DNA from: Halobellus litoreus
Lineage (GTDB): Archaea > Halobacteriota > Halobacteria > Halobacteriales > Haloferacaceae
Direction of reading: 5' to 3'
Assembly (NCBI RefSeq): GCF_024464595.1
Contig: NZ_JANHAW010000001.1
Span: forward strand, 496,001-560,000
DNA: 64,000 nt
Position 1 is the first letter of the stretch; every line of letters begins with the position of its first letter. Positions 753-13,124 of this stretch are shown here, piece by piece. The notes beneath the pieces were generated by a model, which saw only the letters and a list, made by a program, of their open reading frames with translations, did no database searches and was not told the origin of the DNA. The position numbers and the translations under genes were made by a program.

Positions 753-1805
753 ATGACTGCCTCATCATCCGAACCCGACGCGGAGCGGGTCGTCGTGCTC
801 GCCCACGAGAAGTTCCCCGAGCGGGCGAAGACGGCCACTGGTGTGCTCAAATACGCGGATTACGACGTCGTCGCCGTCCTCGACCGCGACCGAGCCGGAA
901 CGGTCACGACCGACCACCGCGCGGACCTGCCCGAGGTTCCGATCGTCTCCTCGATGGCGGACGCGCCCGACGCCGACACGCTGCTGATCGGAATCTCCCC
1001 CATCGGCGGCGAGTTCGACGATTCCTGGCGACCCGACGTTCGGACCGCGATCGAGCGCGGGTGCGACGTCGTCGCGGGCCTCCACTACTTCCTCGCCGAT
1101 GACGAGGAGTTCACGGCGCTCGCCGAGGAACACGGCGTGGCGCTCCGCGACGTGCGAAAGCCCAAGGAAGACTTGACGGTCGCCGGCGGCCGGAGCGCCG
1201 ACGTCGACGCCGAGGTGGTGCTGACGGTCGGGACCGACTGCTCGGTCGGGAAGATGACCGTCGCGCTCGAACTCGTCGAGGCCGCCCGCGAGCGCGGCGT
1301 CGACGCGGGATTCATCCCGACCGGGCAGACCGGGATTATGATCGCCGGCTGGGGCAACCCGATCGACCGCGTCGTCTCGGATTTCACCGCCGGCGCGGTC
1401 GAGGAGATGATCCTCGAGGTCGGCGACGACTACGACGTGCTGTTCGTCGAGGGCCAGGGCAGCATCGTCCACCCGGCGTACTCCGCGGTCACCTGCGGCA
1501 TCCTCCACGGCGCGATGCCGGACTCGATGGTCCTCTGTCACACGGCGGGCCGCGAAGCGATCCACGGCTACGAGTCGTTCTCGCTCCCTGAGATCGACGA
1601 GTACGTCGACCTCTACGAGGGGCTGGCTGCGCCTGTTCACGAGGGGGACATCGTCGCGGGCGCGCTGAACACGTCCGGCATCGACGACGACGAAGCGGCG
1701 CGCGAGGCGGTCGAGGCGTACGCCGACGAACTGGGACGCCCGGCGACCGACGTCGTCCGGTTCGACGCCGACGCGGTCCTGGATTCGGTCCTCGGGGGCG
1801 AGTGA
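753..1805 (+). CDS. dgcN: DUF1611 / DgcN family protein (putative D-glutamate N-acetyltransferase)
   Basis: The 350-residue protein has an N-terminal Rossmann-like half and a C-terminal P-loop half with GTDCSVGKMT at residues 160-169 (K167). This layout is typical of DUF1611. The gene lies 3 nt before an enolase-superfamily epimerase, the arrangement of the DgcN-DgcA pair in marine bacteria. There DgcN acetylates D-glutamate and DgcA racemises N-acetyl-D-glutamate to the L form for catabolism. The family is clear from the sequence; the D-glutamate role here is inferred from the pairing. ATG start; the upstream gap holds the AT-containing stretch ggttaaaacc near 721, a possible promoter. Confidence 0.75.
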   Translation: MTASSSEPDAERVVVLAHEKFPERAKTATGVLKYADYDVVAVLDRDRAGTVTTDHRADLPEVPIVSSMADAPDADTLLIGISPIGGEFDDSWRPDVRTAIERGCDVVAGLHYFLADDEEFTALAEEHGVALRDVRKPKEDLTVAGGRSADVDAEVVLTVGTDCSVGKMTVALELVEAARERGVDAGFIPTGQTGIMIAGWGNPIDRVVSDFTAGAVEEMILEVGDDYDVLFVEGQGSIVHPAYSAVTCGILHGAMPDSMVLCHTAGREAIHGYESFSLPEIDEYVDLYEGLAAPVHEGDIVAGALNTSGIDDDEAAREAVEAYADELGRPATDVVRFDADAVLDSVLGGE

Positions 1806-1808
1806 CGG

Positions 1809-2846
1809 ATGCTCTCGACCGAGTTCGAGCGGCTCTCGCTCCCGCTCGCGGACGCGTTCACCATCTCCCGCGGGACCCAGGAGGTCGCCGAGAACGTCGT
1901 CGTCCGGATCACCGACGGCGGCGGGATGACTGGCGTCGGGGCCGCCGCCCCGGTGGGCCACTACGGCGAGACGCCGGAGACGGTCGAAGCCGTGCTGCCG
2001 GACCTGCTTGCCGTCGTCGAGTCAGTCGGCGACGCGCACGCGACCGAACGGATCGAGCGCGAACTGCGCGGCGTCGTCGAAGGCAATCCGGCGGCGCGTG
2101 CCGCGGTCGAGATCGCGCTGCACGACCTCGCCGCGAAGCGACTCGGCGTTCCGCTGTACCGCCAGTGGGGGCTCGACCCCGAGCGGGTGCCGAAAACCTC
2201 GTTCACGATCGGCCTCGACGCGACCGAGCGGATGCGCGAGAAGACGCGTAAGGCGATCGAGGACGGCTACGACGTCCTGAAAGTGAAACTCGGAACCGAT
2301 CGCGACGAGGAAATCGTCGCCGCCGTCCGTGAGGCGGCCCCCGACGCCAGCATCCGCGTCGACGCCAACGAGGCGTGGACGCCGCGGGAGGCGGTCCGGA
2401 TGACCGAACGACTCGACGCGTACGACGTCGAGTTCGTCGAACAGCCCGTTCCCGCGAGCGACCCGGATGGGCTCAAATTCGTCTACGAGCGGTCGGCGCT
2501 CCCCATCGCGGCCGACGAGTCCTGCGTGACGCTTCCGGACGTGCCCGCGATCGCCGACCGAACGGATATCGTGAACCTGAAGCTGATGAAAACCGGCGGC
2601 CTCACGGAGGCGAAGCGGATGGTCCACGCCGCGCGGGCGCACGGACTGGAGGTGATGCTCGGCTGTATGATCGAGACGAACGCGGCCATCGCGGCCGCGT
2701 GTCACCTCGCGCCGCTCGTCGACTACGCGGACCTCGACGGCGCGCTGTTGCTCGACGACGACGAGTACGAGGGCGTGCCGATCGACGGCAGCGAGATCCG
2801 ACTCGCCGGGGTCGACCGCGCGGGAACCGGCGCGCGGCGGACGTAG
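1809..2846 (+). CDS. dgcA: Dipeptide epimerase-like enolase-superfamily enzyme (DgcA, putative N-acetyl-D-glutamate racemase)
   Basis: The 345-residue protein is of the mandelate-racemase/muconate-lactonizing type. An N-terminal capping domain (about 1-110) precedes a TIM barrel. The barrel shows the catalytic KVK at 158-160, Mg ligands D185 (DANEAW), E211 (EQP) and D236 (ADES), and a second catalytic Lys at K261 (LKLMKTGG). This two-lysine set fits 1,1-proton-transfer epimerases such as L-Ala-D/L-Glu epimerase. It begins 3 nt after dgcN, so the two are almost certainly cotranscribed. The likely joint role is D-glutamate breakdown. A dipeptide epimerase of cell-wall peptides is an alternative, but archaea lack murein. 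Confidence 0.75.
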   Translation: MLSTEFERLSLPLADAFTISRGTQEVAENVVVRITDGGGMTGVGAAAPVGHYGETPETVEAVLPDLLAVVESVGDAHATERIERELRGVVEGNPAARAAVEIALHDLAAKRLGVPLYRQWGLDPERVPKTSFTIGLDATERMREKTRKAIEDGYDVLKVKLGTDRDEEIVAAVREAAPDASIRVDANEAWTPREAVRMTERLDAYDVEFVEQPVPASDPDGLKFVYERSALPIAADESCVTLPDVPAIADRTDIVNLKLMKTGGLTEAKRMVHAARAHGLEVMLGCMIETNAAIAAACHLAPLVDYADLDGALLLDDDEYEGVPIDGSEIRLAGVDRAGTGARRT

Positions 2847-5312: not shown

Positions 5313-6332
5313 TTATTCCTCGCCGGCCGCCCGCGCGAGTTCCGCGTAGGCCGCCCACGAGGGGTCGACGTCCGGGTGTGAGATTGCCTCGCCGTCGACC
5401 ACGACGCCCGATCCCGACTCGACTGTTCCCGCGACGCCGACGGGCGTGCCCTCGGATTCGAGCGCGGCGACGACGTCGCCGGTGTGATCGGGATCGACGG
5501 AAAGCACGAGCGTGCCGCCGGTCGTCGTCGTCCAGGGGTCGATCCCGAGCGCCTCGCAGGTCTCGCGGACACCGGGCCGAATGGGAATCCCGTCCGTCGA
5601 GAGGTCGAATCTGACCGCCGACCCGTCGGCCATTTCGACGAACGCCCCGAAGAGCCCGCACTCGGTCGCGTCGTGCATCGCGTGGACGCCGCCCGCCGCG
5701 GCAGCGGTCATCGCGTCGCGGACGCAGGTCGCCTCGTCGAGCCGTTCCTGTGCCGTTTCGAGCGTCGATTCGTCGAGTTCGATCACCGCTGGAAACAGCG
5801 TGGTGAGGAGTCCGGTCGCCTCGACCGCTGGGCCCTTCGTCACGAGGACGTCGTCGCCGACACGGGCGCCGTCTGGGCGGATTACGTCCCCGAAGTCGCC
5901 GACGCCGAGCGCGGTCGCGCCGCCGACCCACGGGAACGAACAGTCCGCGTAGCGGGCGGTGTGGCCGGTGACGATCGAGACGCCCAGGTCGGCCGCTTCC
6001 GCGTGCATCGAGCCCCAGAGCGTCGCGAACGACGCTTCGGAGAGAGACGGCGGCAGCGTGAACGAGACGGCCAGATGCGACGGGGCGAGTCCCGAAACCG
6101 CGACGTCCGCGAGGACGAAGTCCAGCGCGAACCGGCCGGCGCGCTTGAACCCGAGCCCCGGCAACACGGATACGGGATCCGTCGCGATCGCGATCGCCGT
6201 CCCATCGACGTCGAGGAGGCCGAAATCGACCCCGTGTGTCGGACCGAGCCGCACGTCGTCGCGGTCGGCACCGAGTCTGGGGAAGATGTGTTCGTCGAAG
6301 AACGACCGGTCGACCTTTCCGAAATCCGCCAT
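5313..6332 (-). CDS. AIR synthase-related protein (PurM/HypE-like fold)
   Basis: At 339 residues it has an N-terminal ATP-grasping AIRS domain (GPTHGVDFG near 30, then TDPVS near 52) and a C-terminal AIRS_C domain from about residue 160 (VLVTKGPAVEATG). The family includes PurM, PurL, HypE, SelD and ThiL. No hydrogenase genes lie nearby, so HypE is unlikely; many haloarchaea carry such a stand-alone paralogue of unknown substrate. It is 14 nt from the convergent DUF309 stop. Confidence 0.75.
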   Translation of the reverse strand: MADFGKVDRSFFDEHIFPRLGADRDDVRLGPTHGVDFGLLDVDGTAIAIATDPVSVLPGLGFKRAGRFALDFVLADVAVSGLAPSHLAVSFTLPPSLSEASFATLWGSMHAEAADLGVSIVTGHTARYADCSFPWVGGATALGVGDFGDVIRPDGARVGDDVLVTKGPAVEATGLLTTLFPAVIELDESTLETAQERLDEATCVRDAMTAAAAGGVHAMHDATECGLFGAFVEMADGSAVRFDLSTDGIPIRPGVRETCEALGIDPWTTTTGGTLVLSVDPDHTGDVVAALESEGTPVGVAGTVESGSGVVVDGEAISHPDVDPSWAAYAELARAAGEE

Positions 6333-6395: not shown

Positions 6396-7088
6396 TCAGT
6401 CGTCGGGATCGACGACGAGCTGGTCGGCGAGCGCTTCCTCGGTCACCGTTCGTTCCCAGTCGCGGCCGGCCGTGCCGCCGACCTCGGCGTGGATCTTCTC
6501 TGCGAGCAGATTCACCGCGACGCTGTTGGCGCCCTCGGGGACGACGAGGTCGGCGTGTTTCTTCGTAGGTTCGACGAACTGTTCGTGCATCGGCTTGACC
6601 GTCGAGAGGTACTGCTCGATGACGCCCTCGAGATCGCGACCGCGTTCGATGACGTCCCGCTGAATGCGCCGGATGATGCGGACGTCGGCGTCGGTCTCGA
6701 CGTAGAGCCGCAGGTCCAGCATCTCGTTGATCTCCTCGTCGTAGAGCGCGAAGATCCCCTCGAGGATGACGACATCAGTCGGTTCGACGCGGGTCGTCTC
6801 GTCGGTCCGGTTGTGGATCTCGAAGTCGTACGTCGGCATCTCGATCGGCTGGCCCTCCAGAAGCGTCGAGAGCTGCGTCCTGAGGAGTTCCCACTCGAAC
6901 GCGGAGGGGTGATCGTAGTTCACGTCCTCGCGCTCGTCGAGCTCGAGATGGCTCTGATCTTCGTAGTAGTTGTCTATCGGAATCCGCGTGACGGAGTCGC
7001 CGACGTTCTGCGTGATGAGGCGCGCGATCGTCGTCTTCCCCGCACCGGTGCCGCCCGCGATCCCGATGACGAACGAGGGGATGCTCAT
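6396..7088 (-). CDS. udk: Uridine kinase
   Basis: The 230-residue P-loop kinase has the Walker A motif GGTGAGKTT at residues 12-20, an IPIDNYYED substrate segment near 36-44 and DVVILEGIFAL near 105-115, all characteristic of uridine/cytidine kinase. It phosphorylates uridine or cytidine with NTP in the pyrimidine salvage route. It is likely monocistronic, 63 nt downstream of the AIR-synthase-like gene on the same strand. Confidence 0.9.
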   Translation of the reverse strand: MSIPSFVIGIAGGTGAGKTTIARLITQNVGDSVTRIPIDNYYEDQSHLELDEREDVNYDHPSAFEWELLRTQLSTLLEGQPIEMPTYDFEIHNRTDETTRVEPTDVVILEGIFALYDEEINEMLDLRLYVETDADVRIIRRIQRDVIERGRDLEGVIEQYLSTVKPMHEQFVEPTKKHADLVVPEGANSVAVNLLAEKIHAEVGGTAGRDWERTVTEEALADQLVVDPDD

Positions 7089-7389: not shown

Positions 7390-8811
7390 ATGGCACGTGA
7401 TATCGTACGTCGTAGATTTTTGAAACGGGTCGGTGCAGCGGGAGCGATCGGTGCGACCGGACTCGCCGGGTGTATCGGGAGCCCCGACGACGGCGGCGAC
7501 GGTGGCGGTGACAGCGGCGACGGTGGTGGCGACGGCGGCGGAGACGGAGACAGCGGCGGCGACGGCGGTGGCGACAGTGGCGGCGACGGCGGCGGCTCCG
7601 GAGGCGGCCCGGGCGGCCTGGTCGTCATCGGCTACCCCGAAAGCGGCATCCAACTGTTCCGCGACTACTACAGCCAGTCGGACGGGAGCGAAGAGATTCT
7701 CGTCCCCGACGGTCTCAGAGACGGATCGATGCCGGGGCAGGTCGGCAACGATATGGAGAACGTGACCGGGACAGCGCCGGCGGCGGGCGGCCCGAACCAG
7801 GAGGCGTTCAACTCCCTCTTCCAGGACGAGTACGGCTCCTCGCCGGGCGTGTTCACCTCCCAGTCGTACGACTCTGTCGCGCTACAACTGCTCGCGAACG
7901 CGGCCGCGGGTGAGAACTCCGGGACCGCGATCCGCGATCAGATGCGCCGGATCGCCAACCCCGGCGGGATGGAGGTCACGCCGGATAACCTCGTCGAGGG
8001 CATCGAGGCGGCCGCGAACGGCGACGACGTGAACTATCAGGGCGCCTCGTCGTCGACGAACTTCAACGAGGCCGGCGACCCGGCATCGGCCGCGTACGCC
8101 ATCTGGGAGTTCAACGCAGACGAGGGCGCCGCAGAGAACATCGAAGTGCAGAACTTCGAGGGGGAGAACCCCGACGGAGCGGGTCCCGCGGCCGACAGCG
8201 GCCCCGGCGGGAGCGACCGCGAGATGTCCGTGGGGATCCTGCTGCCGGAGACGGGCGACCTCGCTTCCGTCGGCGCGCCGATGATCCAGGCCGCACAGCT
8301 CCCGGCCCAGCAGGTCAACGAGGCCAACCCGGCCGGACTCTCGGTCAACGCGCAGGTCGAAGACACCCAGACCTCGCCGAGCGCGGGGACCGCCGCGGCC
8401 GAATCGCTCGTGAGCGCGGGCGTCCCAAGCGTCTGTGGGTCCGCCTCCTCGGGCGTGAACGTGCCCGTCTCACAGGAAGTGTTCATCCCGAACGAGGTCG
8501 TCGGCTGCTCGCCGTCGTCCACGGCGCTGTCGGTGACGAACCTCGAGGACAACGACTACATCTTCCGGACCGCGCCCTCGGACATACTCCAGGGACGCGT
8601 GATGGCGCAGGTGATGTCCGAACGGCTCGGCGTCGACACCGTCTCGACGCTGTACGTCAACAACGACTACGGCCAGCAGCTCTCCGAGCGCTTCAGCAGC
8701 GTGTTCGAAGACACGTTCGACGGAGAGGTGTACCGACAGGTCGCGTTCAACATCGGCGAGTCCTCGTACTCCTCGGTGATCAGCAACGCGCTGTCGGCCC
8801 CGGACAGCTAA
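7390..8811 (+). CDS. Branched-chain amino-acid-type ABC binding lipoprotein with circularly permuted halves
   Basis: The 473-residue protein has a Tat signal with RRRFLKR at 7-13 and a lipobox LAGC at 25-28, so it should be anchored outside the membrane. A Gly/Asp/Ser linker (about 33-76) follows. Family members (Peripla_BP_6, LivK-like) begin with a segment like MSVGILLPETGDL and later reach LVVIGYPESG. Here the order is reversed: residues 77 to about 258 are the usual C-terminal half, about 259-276 are a Gly/Pro/Asp linker, and 277-473 are the usual N-terminal half, ending SNALSAPDS exactly where LVVIGYP would normally follow. The two halves together appear complete. The leaderless start is set by TTTATAT at 7360. 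The partner transporter is probably the convergent livHMGF set. Confidence 0.9.
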   Translation: MARDIVRRRFLKRVGAAGAIGATGLAGCIGSPDDGGDGGGDSGDGGGDGGGDGDSGGDGGGDSGGDGGGSGGGPGGLVVIGYPESGIQLFRDYYSQSDGSEEILVPDGLRDGSMPGQVGNDMENVTGTAPAAGGPNQEAFNSLFQDEYGSSPGVFTSQSYDSVALQLLANAAAGENSGTAIRDQMRRIANPGGMEVTPDNLVEGIEAAANGDDVNYQGASSSTNFNEAGDPASAAYAIWEFNADEGAAENIEVQNFEGENPDGAGPAADSGPGGSDREMSVGILLPETGDLASVGAPMIQAAQLPAQQVNEANPAGLSVNAQVEDTQTSPSAGTAAAESLVSAGVPSVCGSASSGVNVPVSQEVFIPNEVVGCSPSSTALSVTNLEDNDYIFRTAPSDILQGRVMAQVMSERLGVDTVSTLYVNNDYGQQLSERFSSVFEDTFDGEVYRQVAFNIGESSYSSVISNALSAPDS

Positions 8812-9006: not shown

Positions 9007-9795
9007 CTACCCGCCCAGGAAGTCCCGCCGGACCTGCTCGTCGTTCAGGAGGACGTCGCCGTCGTCCATATACCGGTTCTGTCCGTTCGCGAGGACGTAG
9101 CCGCGGTCGCACCGCCGCAACGCCTCCTTGGCGTTCTGTTCGACCATCAGGACGGCCGTCCCGTCGTCGTTGATCGCGTCGATCCGGTCGAACATATCGT
9201 CGACGAGGTCCGGAGCGAGTCCAGCGGAGGGCTCATCGAGCAGGAGCAGCGACGGGTCGAGCATCAGCGCACGACCCATCGCGAGCATCTGCTGTTGGCC
9301 GCCGGACATCGTCCCGGCCTTCTGCGTCTCTCGCTCTTCGAGGATCGGAAACCGCTCGAACACGGCGTCGAGGGCGTCCTGCGGGACCGAATCGAGGATG
9401 TACGCGCCCATCTCCAGGTTCTCACGGACCGTCAGCGAGGAAAAGATGTTGTCGTTCTGCGGAACGTAGCCGACGCCCTCGTGGATGATCTCCTCGGGAC
9501 GGAGCCCCGTGATGTCCTCGCCGTCGAAGATCACGGTGCCGCCCATATGGTTCGTGAGGCCGAAGACTGACTTCATCACCGTGGACTTGCCCGCGCCGTT
9601 GGGCCCCACGATGGTGACGTACTCGCCGTCGGCGACGTCCAGATCGACGTCCGTCAGGATCTGGAGGTCGCCGTAGCCGGCGTCGAGGTCGCGGACTTCG
9701 AGAAGTGCCTGATCCTCCCGGTCCGGGATTGTCTCCTGAGACACGGCCGCAGCCGACTCGGAGGGCGTCGAATCCGGTTCGGTGTCGGCGCTCAT
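9007..9795 (-). CDS. livF: Branched-chain amino-acid ABC transporter ATP-binding protein LivF
   Basis: The 262-residue ATPase has Walker A GPNGAGKST at 64-72, an ABC signature MSGGQQQML and Walker B LLLLDEPSAGL, with LivF-type length and a short C-terminus. The first 30 residues are an acidic haloarchaeal extension. Its ATG overlaps the livG stop (ATGA), so it is the last gene of the livH-livM-livG-livF operon. It energises amino-acid uptake with LivG. The true substrate (Leu/Ile/Val, amide or urea) cannot be told from sequence. Confidence 0.9.
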   Translation of the reverse strand: MSADTEPDSTPSESAAAVSQETIPDREDQALLEVRDLDAGYGDLQILTDVDLDVADGEYVTIVGPNGAGKSTVMKSVFGLTNHMGGTVIFDGEDITGLRPEEIIHEGVGYVPQNDNIFSSLTVRENLEMGAYILDSVPQDALDAVFERFPILEERETQKAGTMSGGQQQMLAMGRALMLDPSLLLLDEPSAGLAPDLVDDMFDRIDAINDDGTAVLMVEQNAKEALRRCDRGYVLANGQNRYMDDGDVLLNDEQVRRDFLGG

Positions 9796-10694
9796 ACGTT
9801 CCCTCCGAGGTAGGCCTCGATGACTTCCTCGTTCGCCTGTATCTCGTCCGGTGAGCCCTCCGTCAGGACCCGGCCCTGGTGGAGGACGATGACGCGTTCG
9901 CAGTTTTCCATAATCAGGTCCATATCGTGTTCGACGAGCAGGAAGGTGTACCCCTCCTCGCGGAGTTCGTGGATGTGCTGCAGAAGCCGCTTCTCCAACG
10001 AGGGATTGACGCCCGCGAACGGCTCGTCCAACAGCAGCATATCGGGATCGGTCAGCAGCGCCCGGGCCATCTCCAGCAGTTTCCGCTGTCCGCCCGAGAG
10101 GTTCCCGGCGTACTCCTCGGCGATGTGATCGATGTCGAAGAACTCCAGCACGTTCCAGACCCGTTCGAGGAGTTCCGTCTCCTGTTCGACGACTGTGTCG
10201 CGGAAGCCGGGCGTGACCGACCGCCAGAGCGCTTCCCCGCGCTGGCCCTTCGGAGCCAGCATCAGGTTCTCCAGGACGGTCATCTCCTGCAGTTCGCGTG
10301 CGATCTGGAACGTCCGGACGAGCCCCTTGTTCGCGATGGCGTGTGGCCGCTGTCCGGTGATGTCCTCGCCGTCGAAGGTCACAGTCCCGGAGTCGGGTTG
10401 CAACATCCCGGTGATGAGGTTGAACGTCGTCGACTTCCCCGCGCCGTTGGGGCCGATGAGGCCGGTGAGGCTTCCCTGTTTGACCCGGAACGAGGCGTCG
10501 TCGACGGCGGTGATCCCGCCGAATGACTTGCGTAACGCCTCGACCTGAAGCGGATACTCTTCACTGACGTTCGGACCGCCGGAGCCGAGGTCCAGGCTGG
10601 TCGATCCGGTCGTCGGCGCGCCGGCAGCGTCCGCGTTGGGACCGTCGTCACCTGCAGCGCCGCCGTCGACGTTCGTGACGTCGGAATCACTCAT
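9792..10694 (-). CDS. livG: Branched-chain amino-acid ABC transporter ATP-binding protein LivG
   Basis: The 300-residue ATPase has Walker A GPNGAGKST at 81-89, signature LSGGQRKLLEMARAL and Walker B LLLDEPFAGVNP. The region between 100 and 170 is longer than in LivF, as is normal for LivG. The ATG at 10694 is preferred over an in-frame GTG 9 nt upstream. It overlaps the end of livM by 8 nt. An acidic, disordered stretch of about 45 residues precedes the ATPase domain. Confidence 0.9.
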   Translation of the reverse strand: MSDSDVTNVDGGAAGDDGPNADAAGAPTTGSTSLDLGSGGPNVSEEYPLQVEALRKSFGGITAVDDASFRVKQGSLTGLIGPNGAGKSTTFNLITGMLQPDSGTVTFDGEDITGQRPHAIANKGLVRTFQIARELQEMTVLENLMLAPKGQRGEALWRSVTPGFRDTVVEQETELLERVWNVLEFFDIDHIAEEYAGNLSGGQRKLLEMARALLTDPDMLLLDEPFAGVNPSLEKRLLQHIHELREEGYTFLLVEHDMDLIMENCERVIVLHQGRVLTEGSPDEIQANEEVIEAYLGGNV

Positions 10695-12021
10695 CGCCAC
10701 CACCTCCGGCGTCGCCGCCGTCGGTCCGGGCGCTCCCGCTCGCCCGCGACGCGGTGAGTGGAATCCCCGCGGCCGTCTCCTTGCGGTGGCCGAGCATCCC
10801 CTCCGGGCGGTTGTGCATCAGCCAGATCAGGACGAGCCCCATAAAGACGAGCTGGAGCTGACGGATGCTGTCGATAGTGTAGAAGAACAGCGGCGCGGGG
10901 TCGAAATTCGAGATGAGCGGCGCGATCGCCGGCCCGAACCCAGCGGGCGCGTCGGCGTTCGGGATCACGGTGTCGATGAGGTTCTTCAGGTACCGCGGTC
11001 CCTGGTAGAGCAGCGCGGCGAAGACCGCGCCGCCGAGGACGCTCCCTGTGTTCGAGCCCGCACCGCCGATGATGAGCGCGATCCACACGAAGAAGGTGAT
11101 CCGCGGCCGGAAGAAGTTCGGCGTGACCGCTCCGCTCGTCATCAGCCAGAGGATGCCTGCCAGCCCCATCAGCGCACAGCCGAGCATGAACGCCTTGATC
11201 TTGAACCGGTTCGTGTTCTTCCCCAGCGAATTGGCGACGTCCTCGTCCTCTCGGATCGCTTTCAGCACGCGTCCGAACGGCGATTCGCCGGTGCGCTTGA
11301 GCAGCCAGAAGTAGACGGCGACGAACCCGAGGAGCACCGCGCCGTAGACGAGGCCGTCGACGACCGGCTTCGGGTTGTTGGGGATGATCACCTCGAAGGT
11401 CGCGACGAAGCCGAGATACACGTCCCACAGCCCGAAGAACTGGAAGAACGCCTCCAGCGGGTTGGTGAAGTCGAGGATGAGCCCCGAGCCCCCGCCGAAG
11501 CCGACTCGCTCGCCGAACAGCTGGAACTGCTGCAGTTCGCCCGAGAGGAACGAGAAGCGCACGATCTCGGACATCGCGATCGTGACGATCGCGAGATAGT
11601 CGGCCCGCAACCGCAGCGCCGGCAACGCGATCAGCGCCCCCAGGAGCGCGGCGGCGATCATCCCGGCGACGATCCCGACGAGCAGCGGCAGGCCGAGACC
11701 CCCGACCTGCGCCGCCCCGCCGGATTCGTACAGCGGCTTCGAGACCAGGGCCATCACGTAGATTCCGACGGCCATGAACCCGACGATACCGATGTTGAAC
11801 AGCCCGGTGTACCCCCAGTGGAGGTTGAGCGCGAGTGCGAGCATCGCGAAGACCCCGATGTAGAAGGTCAGCACGCCGATCGTGTTCAGTTGGCCGCGGA
11901 CGGAGTAGCCGAGACCGACGCCGATCAGCACGTAGGCGGCGTAAATGGCGAGGAGCGCGGCCACGATCAGCCCCGCGTCGCCGCCCGGAATCCGTTCGGC
12001 GACGTCGTCGCGAACGCTCAT
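10687..12021 (-). CDS. livM: Branched-chain amino-acid ABC transporter permease LivM
   Basis: A 444-residue multi-spanning permease. The start at 12021 (MSVRDDVAER) overlaps the livH stop as ATGA; upstream codons in this frame lie inside livH. The first membrane segment is near residues 17-37. The permease motif GESPFGRVLKAIREDE lies in the loop near 255-270, and GGAGSNTGSVLGGAVF in a late helix matches LivM. The C-terminal tail is hydrophilic. It forms the channel with LivH. Confidence 0.9.
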   Translation of the reverse strand: MSVRDDVAERIPGGDAGLIVAALLAIYAAYVLIGVGLGYSVRGQLNTIGVLTFYIGVFAMLALALNLHWGYTGLFNIGIVGFMAVGIYVMALVSKPLYESGGAAQVGGLGLPLLVGIVAGMIAAALLGALIALPALRLRADYLAIVTIAMSEIVRFSFLSGELQQFQLFGERVGFGGGSGLILDFTNPLEAFFQFFGLWDVYLGFVATFEVIIPNNPKPVVDGLVYGAVLLGFVAVYFWLLKRTGESPFGRVLKAIREDEDVANSLGKNTNRFKIKAFMLGCALMGLAGILWLMTSGAVTPNFFRPRITFFVWIALIIGGAGSNTGSVLGGAVFAALLYQGPRYLKNLIDTVIPNADAPAGFGPAIAPLISNFDPAPLFFYTIDSIRQLQLVFMGLVLIWLMHNRPEGMLGHRKETAAGIPLTASRASGSARTDGGDAGGGGDE

Positions 12022-13124
12022 GCTGTCGACCTCCCGGAGAACAGTCCCTCGGGCTTCACCAGGAGGAGGACGATCATCACGAAGAACGCGGCCGCGCGGG
12101 CGAACGCCGAGGGGATCCAGATGATCGAGACCGACGCCGTGAGCCCGATCGCGAGACCGCCGACGATCGCGCCGTAGATCGAGCCGATCCCGCCGAGGAT
12201 GACCGCCGCGAAGATCAAGAGCAACAGCAGCCACCCGTCGTTGAACCCGAGCGTGCCCTTCCAGAGGATGAACATATAGCCCGCCATCCCGGTGAGGCCG
12301 CCGCCGATCACCCACACCGCGCGGATGACCCGTTCGGTCGGGATCCCCGTGATCTGGGCGAGGTCCTCGTTGTCGGCCATCGCCCGCATCGCCTTCCCGA
12401 GTTTGGTCATCTGCAGGAGAAGGTGTACGCCGAGCATCAGGCTGCCGGCGACGACGACGAGCGCGATGTCGTGGGCGTTGACCCGGACCGCGCCGTCGAC
12501 GAGATACAGCGCGATCGCCGGCGGTTGCGACGTCGTGCCGCGGACGTCAGACCCGAAGACGAACTGCATCAGATACCGGAGCGCGAACGCGACGCCGACG
12601 CTCGTGATGAGCAGCGTGATCCCGTCGGCGTCACGGATCGGGCGGAACGTCGTGCGGTCGACGAACAACGCCAGCGCGACCGTAGCCACCCCGGCGACGA
12701 GAATGCCGGCGACGACCGCGAGCGGCGTCGTCGTGACCCCGATCCCGAGCGTGCCCCCGAACACCGATCCGCCCGCACCGACGAGCAACAGCGCGCCCAC
12801 GTCGGCGCGGCCGAACCCCGCGACGAGGTACGTCGTCGCCCACCCGGAGAACGCGCCCGCAGTGATGTAGTCCCCGTGCGCGAAGTTCGCGAAGTTCAGA
12901 ATGCTGTACGTCATGGAAAGCCCGATGCCCGCGAGACCGACCACCAGCCCGCGCATCAGCCCGTCCCACACGAGCGAGCCGATCCCGCTGAACGAGTGCT
13001 CTCCGGTTGCGAGACCGGCAACGAGGTCGAACAGCAGAACGACTCCGACGAGGGCCAGCAGAACGGAGCCTGGCCGCGTGATCGCGAACTGACGTCCGCG
13101 TGTGTATGTCTCGGCGATACCCAT
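12018..13124 (-). CDS. livH: Branched-chain amino-acid ABC transporter permease LivH
   Basis: A 368-residue inner-membrane permease, first gene of the operon. It has SMTYSILNFANFAHGDY near 65-85 and GIGSIYGAIVGGLAIG near 320, both typical of LivH. Upstream (13125-13273), on the minus strand, AT-rich sequence near 13130-13140 and 13165-13175 could hold the promoter. Spacing with the next three genes is by overlap, implying one transcript and coupled translation. Confidence 0.9.
   Translation of the reverse strand: MGIAETYTRGRQFAITRPGSVLLALVGVVLLFDLVAGLATGEHSFSGIGSLVWDGLMRGLVVGLAGIGLSMTYSILNFANFAHGDYITAGAFSGWATTYLVAGFGRADVGALLLVGAGGSVFGGTLGIGVTTTPLAVVAGILVAGVATVALALFVDRTTFRPIRDADGITLLITSVGVAFALRYLMQFVFGSDVRGTTSQPPAIALYLVDGAVRVNAHDIALVVVAGSLMLGVHLLLQMTKLGKAMRAMADNEDLAQITGIPTERVIRAVWVIGGGLTGMAGYMFILWKGTLGFNDGWLLLLLIFAAVILGGIGSIYGAIVGGLAIGLTASVSIIWIPSAFARAAAFFVMIVLLLVKPEGLFSGRSTA

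Follow-up and report, generated by a model that had tools for sequence, protein, structure and literature searches.

Circular permutation of a LivK-type binding lipoprotein in place at the liv locus of haloarchaea, with further permutations after it

Introduction

The locus described here raises the question of whether a substrate-binding lipoprotein of the LivK/LivJ type can naturally carry the two parts of its domain in exchanged order and, if so, by what route and how often that order came about. Known natural circular permutants are, as a rule, isolated and ancient, and the comparison spans distant families. The gene in question lies in a 64,000-nucleotide stretch of the genome of Halobellus litoreus (contig NZ_JANHAW010000001.1, positions 496,001 to 560,000), hereafter called the window, and its homologues were sought in 392 genomes of the class Halobacteria. 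The order found in the window, termed P1, is an old and widespread permutation situated at the liv locus itself, and further permutations came after it.

Results

The permuted gene and its product

Translation of the open reading frame at 7390-8811 on the plus strand gave a 473-aa product, with no stops in the reading frame (Table 1). The protein begins with MARDIVRRRFLKRVGA...LAGC and passes through a Gly/Asp linker into LVVIGYPESG...; its second half runs from MSVGILLPETGDL... to a terminal ...ALSAPDS, followed by the stop, and a fusion linker of about 20 residues separates ...IEVQNFE from MSVGILLPETGDL. A twin-arginine motif and a lipobox cysteine, MARDIVRRRFLK...GLAGC, can be read from the sequence and point to an archaeal Tat-exported lipoprotein. 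The layout of signal and lipobox is alike in P1, in a second permuted order (P2, see below) and in canonical homologues, with median tethers between cysteine and domain of 30, 23.5, and 24.5 aa, respectively. G+C content at third positions is similar in the two domain parts (0.89 and 0.92), and the closest match from a named assembly was that of Halobellus rarus (96% over 397 aa).

Table 1. Features of the permuted gene and of the adjacent liv genes, in window positions
Feature	Coordinates	Strand	Basis
LivK/LivJ-type substrate-binding lipoprotein gene, circularly permuted, P1 order, 473 aa	7390..8811	+	
Predicted twin-arginine signal peptide and lipobox LAGC, Cys = residue 28	7390..7473	+	sequence reading
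Tether rich in Gly/Asp/Ser, from lipid-anchored Cys to domain	7474..7617	+	
Canonically C-terminal domain part, LVVIGYP... to ...IEVQNFE, first here	7618..8160	+	
Fusion linker from old C-terminus to old N-terminus; low model confidence	8161..8223	+	
Canonically N-terminal domain part, MSVGILLPETGDL... to ...NALSAPDS, last here	8224..8808	+	
Approximate P2 opening point (helix 1/strand 2 loop; seven other genomes), unbroken here	8331..8332		
LivF-like ABC ATPase, transcribed toward the binding-protein gene	9007..9795	-	
LivG-like ABC ATPase	9792..10703	-	
ORF containing LivM-like permease, which probably starts near 12024	10687..12315	-	
LivH-like permease	12018..13124	-	

Evidence for the exchanged order

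In Pfam searches, positions 3-188 of the 343 in Peripla_BP_6 matched the C-terminal half of the protein and positions 233-351 of the 353 in ANF_receptor matched its N-terminal half, i.e., the halves stand in reversed order. When they were rotated in silico, Peripla_BP_6 matched in a single stretch (4-311 of 343) with 113 bits vs. 98.2 bits for the native order, both scores exceeding the gathering cut-off of 31.7 bits. Likewise, phmmer searches of PDB sequences aligned the rotated query with 3ipc, 3td9, and 4gnr in one piece (approximately residues 2-313), as opposed to residues 200-394 only, the last 195, in the native order. Rotation raised the score against the best canonical haloarchaeal homologue from 221 to 414 bits, and the rotated protein matched canonical homologues continuously over 375-378 residues with 52-58% identity; per half, canonical-order homologues showed 50-63% identity. 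The protein thus has two complete halves, an exchanged order and a full-length match once rotated, as a circular permutant should, and since it departs from the canonical N-to-C order of Peripla_BP_6/LivK-type proteins it represents a permuted variant of that family. Its family membership is one of sequence, and it would be expected to act like other LivK-type proteins.

A sequence-only reading of the window had proposed a whole-domain permutation in which signal and lipobox were kept and nothing was missing at the split. The swapped order was confirmed by the Pfam reversal and by the full-length match after rotation, and the retention of signal and lipobox is supported by the sequence. That no residues were lost is borne out by the single full-length match of the rotated halves to canonical homologues.

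Predicted structure

AlphaFold modeling with 42 P1 sequences gave a pLDDT of 84.3 and a pTM of 0.85, with strands and helices alternating as in the fold. The model places a strand (7-11) at the new N-terminus and a helix (392-399) before the chain end, while residues ~189-208 join the old termini and form the least certain inner part (pLDDT ~55 for block 191-200). The loop that links helix 223-243 to strand 249-256 in this P1 model is the one at which P2 is opened, and these positions indicate that in canonical, P1, and P2 chains alike the first element would be a strand and the opening would lie in a helix-to-strand loop. The earlier suggestion that the new termini lie in the second lobe is consistent with the model and with homology. 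Foldseek, which keeps chain order, matched one half to the leucine-binding proteins 4n0q, 4gnr, 3ipc, and 3td9 at ~2-2.6 Å, as expected for a permutant. Judging from the model, the P1 protein probably folds into the standard two-lobed type-I structure. In the type-I fold, such helix-to-strand loops would face away from the ligand cleft, on the opposite side of the lobes, a location that would explain why opening is tolerated there.

Distribution of the three orders and their genomic place

The search query carried the core written twice, so that every circular permutant yields one full match whose start marks the opening point of the circle. Match starts fell at ~393 for P1, ~170-203 for the canonical order and ~234-243 for P2. 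Matches at 1e-10 or better occurred in 332 of the 392 Halobacteria genomes, and approximately 170 of the 392 carry the P1 order as a single full-length match (~48-96% identity), a tally made by hand from genomes at E <= 1e-100 minus three P2 genomes. Since different haloarchaeal families keep this order, chance is ruled out as its cause. With a canonical query, a canonical copy elsewhere in the genome was found at 1e-80 or better in 8 of 34 P1 genomes (G126, G350, G382, G263, G053, G006, G223, and G339); in the others the best match was the P1 gene itself, in two halves.

Canonical, P1, and P2 genes share one place, tail-to-tail with an oppositely oriented series of LivF, LivG, LivM, and LivH, and the window gene is likewise linked to genes of a LivHMGF-type importer. 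LivF/LivG was present in opposite orientation within 1.5 kb downstream in 42 of 49 P1, 4 of 4 P2, and 18 of 35 canonical rows, the canonical rows without this neighbor belonging mostly to a remoter outgroup that was retrieved with little flanking sequence. The upstream side of the window locus is occupied by genes for an AIR-synthase-related protein and a uridine-kinase-like protein (5313-6332 and 6396-7088, minus strand), the latter gene being a frequent upstream neighbor of the locus in other haloarchaea. Elsewhere in the window (753-2846), a DUF1611 protein has an enolase-superfamily (MR/MLE) protein as its neighbor, and the two may form an amino-acid or dipeptide epimerase cassette. A decayed second P1-like copy was observed in a Halobellus relative (G316; L186, 13938-15041), with stops in its reading frames, a truncated match and an adjoining run of N.

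The second permuted order

Seven genomes (G387, G379, G309, G463, G467, G472, and G473) carry the P2 order, in which the chain is opened at another loop than in P1 and the P1 fusion linker is retained; a search of 171 genomes from the family to which the window belongs yielded none. The P2 gene on a MAG contig (L100) illustrates the arrangement: signal and lipobox are followed by SGLEVNATVEDT..., the middle holds the canonical junction ...ALSGDPDGLFVVGYPEDG... and then the P1 fusion linker ...GDNPEGSGPSADEIPGSDPGRTVELGILLP..., and the chain ends in ...ALEVNEADLDI. This copy and that of G467 are identical across the aligned core.

Three P2 lineages, each with distinct end sequences (..QVNGEI; ..NEADLDI(S); ..KMWSNR or KMWNDQM), were nested at three places within P1 in the tree of the gene itself. 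Joining each pair, or all three, into one clade was rejected (AU p 4e-58, 8.7e-6, and 5e-4 for the pairs and 3e-74 for all three), and uniting the first two was rejected in a broader tree as well (p 3.7e-7). The LivFGMH genes recovered the same placement of these two lineages (p 1e-78) and set the third apart; this third lineage has the same tail-to-tail livFGMH neighborhood. The partner-gene tree was built from full rows, since sparsely filled ones (under half of the columns), among them the truncated locus of the window, had been misplaced. The P2 placements within P1 are therefore three separate ones. In the first two lineages, all segments of the P2 genes had identical nearest P1 relatives, indicating that these genes are not chimeras.

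Grouping of the P1 genes

In the best trees of the binding-protein gene, P1 fell into four to five groups: a main group with the window gene; L178, L180-182, and L229; L177, L222, L224, and L255; L179 and L252; and L245. A single clade of all permuted genes (P1 and P2) was not rejected by the alignment of the gene itself (p 0.075 and 0.097), yet it was rejected by the tree of the partner LivFGMH genes (p 2.5e-5 and 7.7e-6). L245, the P1 gene of G429, shares 71% identity with the canonical L154/L167 and at most 65% with the rest, and grouping it with the main P1 group alone was disfavored in a post hoc test (p 0.0025). In its genus (g86), this species has the P1 order and the congeners L246 and L247 have the canonical one, at the same livFGMH place.

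Discussion

In the current study, we characterized a natural series of chain orders at one transporter locus. We consider it highly probable that the window gene encodes a lipid-anchored, LivK/LivJ-like permutant feeding LivHMGF, and that P1 and P2 were made in place by duplication, fusion and trimming. In the proposed route, a canonical gene would have been duplicated in tandem, the copies fused and their opposite ends trimmed, all in place; a short flexible linker would connect the old termini, and the new opening would lie between a helix and a strand of the second lobe, which would put the lipid tether on lobe 2 instead of lobe 1. In three P1 lineages, a similar event would then have reopened the circle in a loop of lobe 1, giving rise to P2. 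A tandem duplication whose copies lost opposite halves is a plausible cause that we infer from the sequences, and slippage through the Gly-rich repeat, which had also been put forward, is not needed. P2 ends overlap their own starts by a few residues (e.g., ...QVNGEI at the stop and SEIGL...), as expected after duplication, and the internal linkers retain old pre-domain residues, such as GRTI or DRT ahead of the first strand. Tandem P1-P1 gene pairs exist in Haladaptatus, and neither a fused tandem intermediate nor a remnant of the lost ends beside P2 genes was found.

Two candidates were rejected on closer inspection. An apparent remnant of the first half past the stop in G373 proved, residue by residue, to be a chance arginine-rich extension, and the long open frame of a supposedly fused, double-length gene in G325 actually holds two separate genes with stops between them. 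The Haladaptatus pairs (L084, 3770-6600; L151, 5021-7627; L152, 5386-7997) show a feature of their own: the second copy has a Tat-like signal and is devoid of the lipobox cysteine and almost all of the Gly-rich tether, so that it may be secreted rather than lipid-anchored. Several distant canonical lipoproteins (L204, L214, and L199) carry TDSVPG, AGSIPG, or LSSVPG directly after the lipobox cysteine. These motifs resemble the (A/S)DSxPG of P1 fusion linkers and may be a fossil of the second copy's start.

Several other explanations were weighed against permutation in place of a working gene. A normal gene, or two adjacent copies, mis-joined during assembly or scaffolding could yield such an order in a single assembly, and Gly-rich repeats are present at the locus; the probability of this is nevertheless negligible, since the P1 order is colinear in so many unrelated assemblies, including single-contig chromosomes, and the genome of the window itself yielded no canonical copy of the subfamily. 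The same two observations dispose of the misassembly and the mis-joined full-length neighbor against which the sequence-only reading had cautioned. It is also very unlikely that the permuted protein is a relic devoid of function or has abandoned its transport role. At least one extra P1 copy has decayed (L186), but the main copies are intact, conserved over their full length and kept beside livFGMH, and they retain the positions aligned to leucine-binding proteins. Rather, the P1 protein is most likely a working type-I binding protein that, as judged from its sequence relationships, would feed a substrate, probably an amino acid, to the adjacent LivHMGF importer. The notion that P2 genes are chimeras, produced by gene conversion or recombination between differently ordered copies rather than by successive permutations, draws on the canonical copies also present in some P2 genomes. 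We rate it a shade lower still, given the agreement of the P2 segments on their nearest P1 relatives and the matching LivFGMH placement in the first two lineages, together with the P1 linker retained in P2 genes.

How often P1 itself arose is a more evenly balanced matter. Under a single origin, the canonical genes that fall between P1 lineages would reflect tree error or gene exchange. This account has a substantial chance of being correct, albeit the smaller one: the gene's own tree tolerates one clade of permuted genes, the break lies within a few residues of the same position across all P1 lineages, and several fusion linkers are alike, e.g., (A/S)DSxPG. Against it stand the separation of P1 into at least four or five groups in the best trees, the rejection of one clade by the partner genes, and the G429 gene, with its nearer canonical relatives and its poor fit to the main group alone. 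Taken together, the own-gene and partner-gene results favor several origins without settling the matter, and P1 may have arisen several times. Exchange of binding-protein genes between loci could also cause the trees to disagree. Reversion from P1 to the canonical order is not needed, because in most canonical genes the coding sequence stops at the ancestral C-terminus and shows no linker remnant. It is conceivable, though on balance rather unlikely, that one transporter locus was permuted repeatedly, with several changes from canonical to P1 and three from P1 to P2, always at the same two helix-to-strand loops, and with a shift of the tether between lobes that alters docking on the importer and is under selection.

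Canonical, once-permuted and twice-permuted orthologues thus occur at one locus within one class of culturable archaea, some of them ~70% identical across the permutation, and provide a rare natural series for studying how chain order changes without loss of fold. Direct tests are possible of the route of permutation, of the loops that accept new ends and of the importance of the attachment point of the lipid tether. A practical caution is that profile searches show such permuted proteins as half matches.

Compared with known LivK/LivJ-type proteins (PF13458, Peripla_BP_6; 3ipc, 3td9, 4gnr, 4n0q, 2lbp), the haloarchaeal proteins are homologous over approximately the whole domain once rotated, have the same order of motifs on the circle and are likewise encoded as lipoproteins beside LivHMGF-type genes. 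Unlike them, P1 has a swapped linear order, old termini fused by a new linker and a tether on the other lobe, and P2 starts one strand-helix unit past the canonical start. No report of a natural permuted LivK-type protein was found in the open-access literature, subscription papers being outside the search. One known change of topology within periplasmic binding proteins was reportedly an ancient exchange of strands between the lobes and not a circular permutation among orthologues. Like P1 and P2, this dislocation of domains between the type-I and type-II groups (Fukami-Kobayashi 1999, cited in PMC10601554) altered topology within periplasmic binding proteins. Engineered permuted halves of the Thermotoga ribose-binding protein, whose structures have been solved, indicate that type-I lobes tolerate permutation (PMC9815098); those are man-made single lobes, in contrast to the natural full-length permutants described here. 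Natural permutants also occur among the C5-DNA methyltransferases, where several origins through duplication and truncation are proposed and one opening site is favored (PMC5944983). However, these are DNA-modifying enzymes with essentially one permuted topology, whereas the haloarchaeal locus, whose place in the chromosome is conserved, displays three orders, of which one derives from another.
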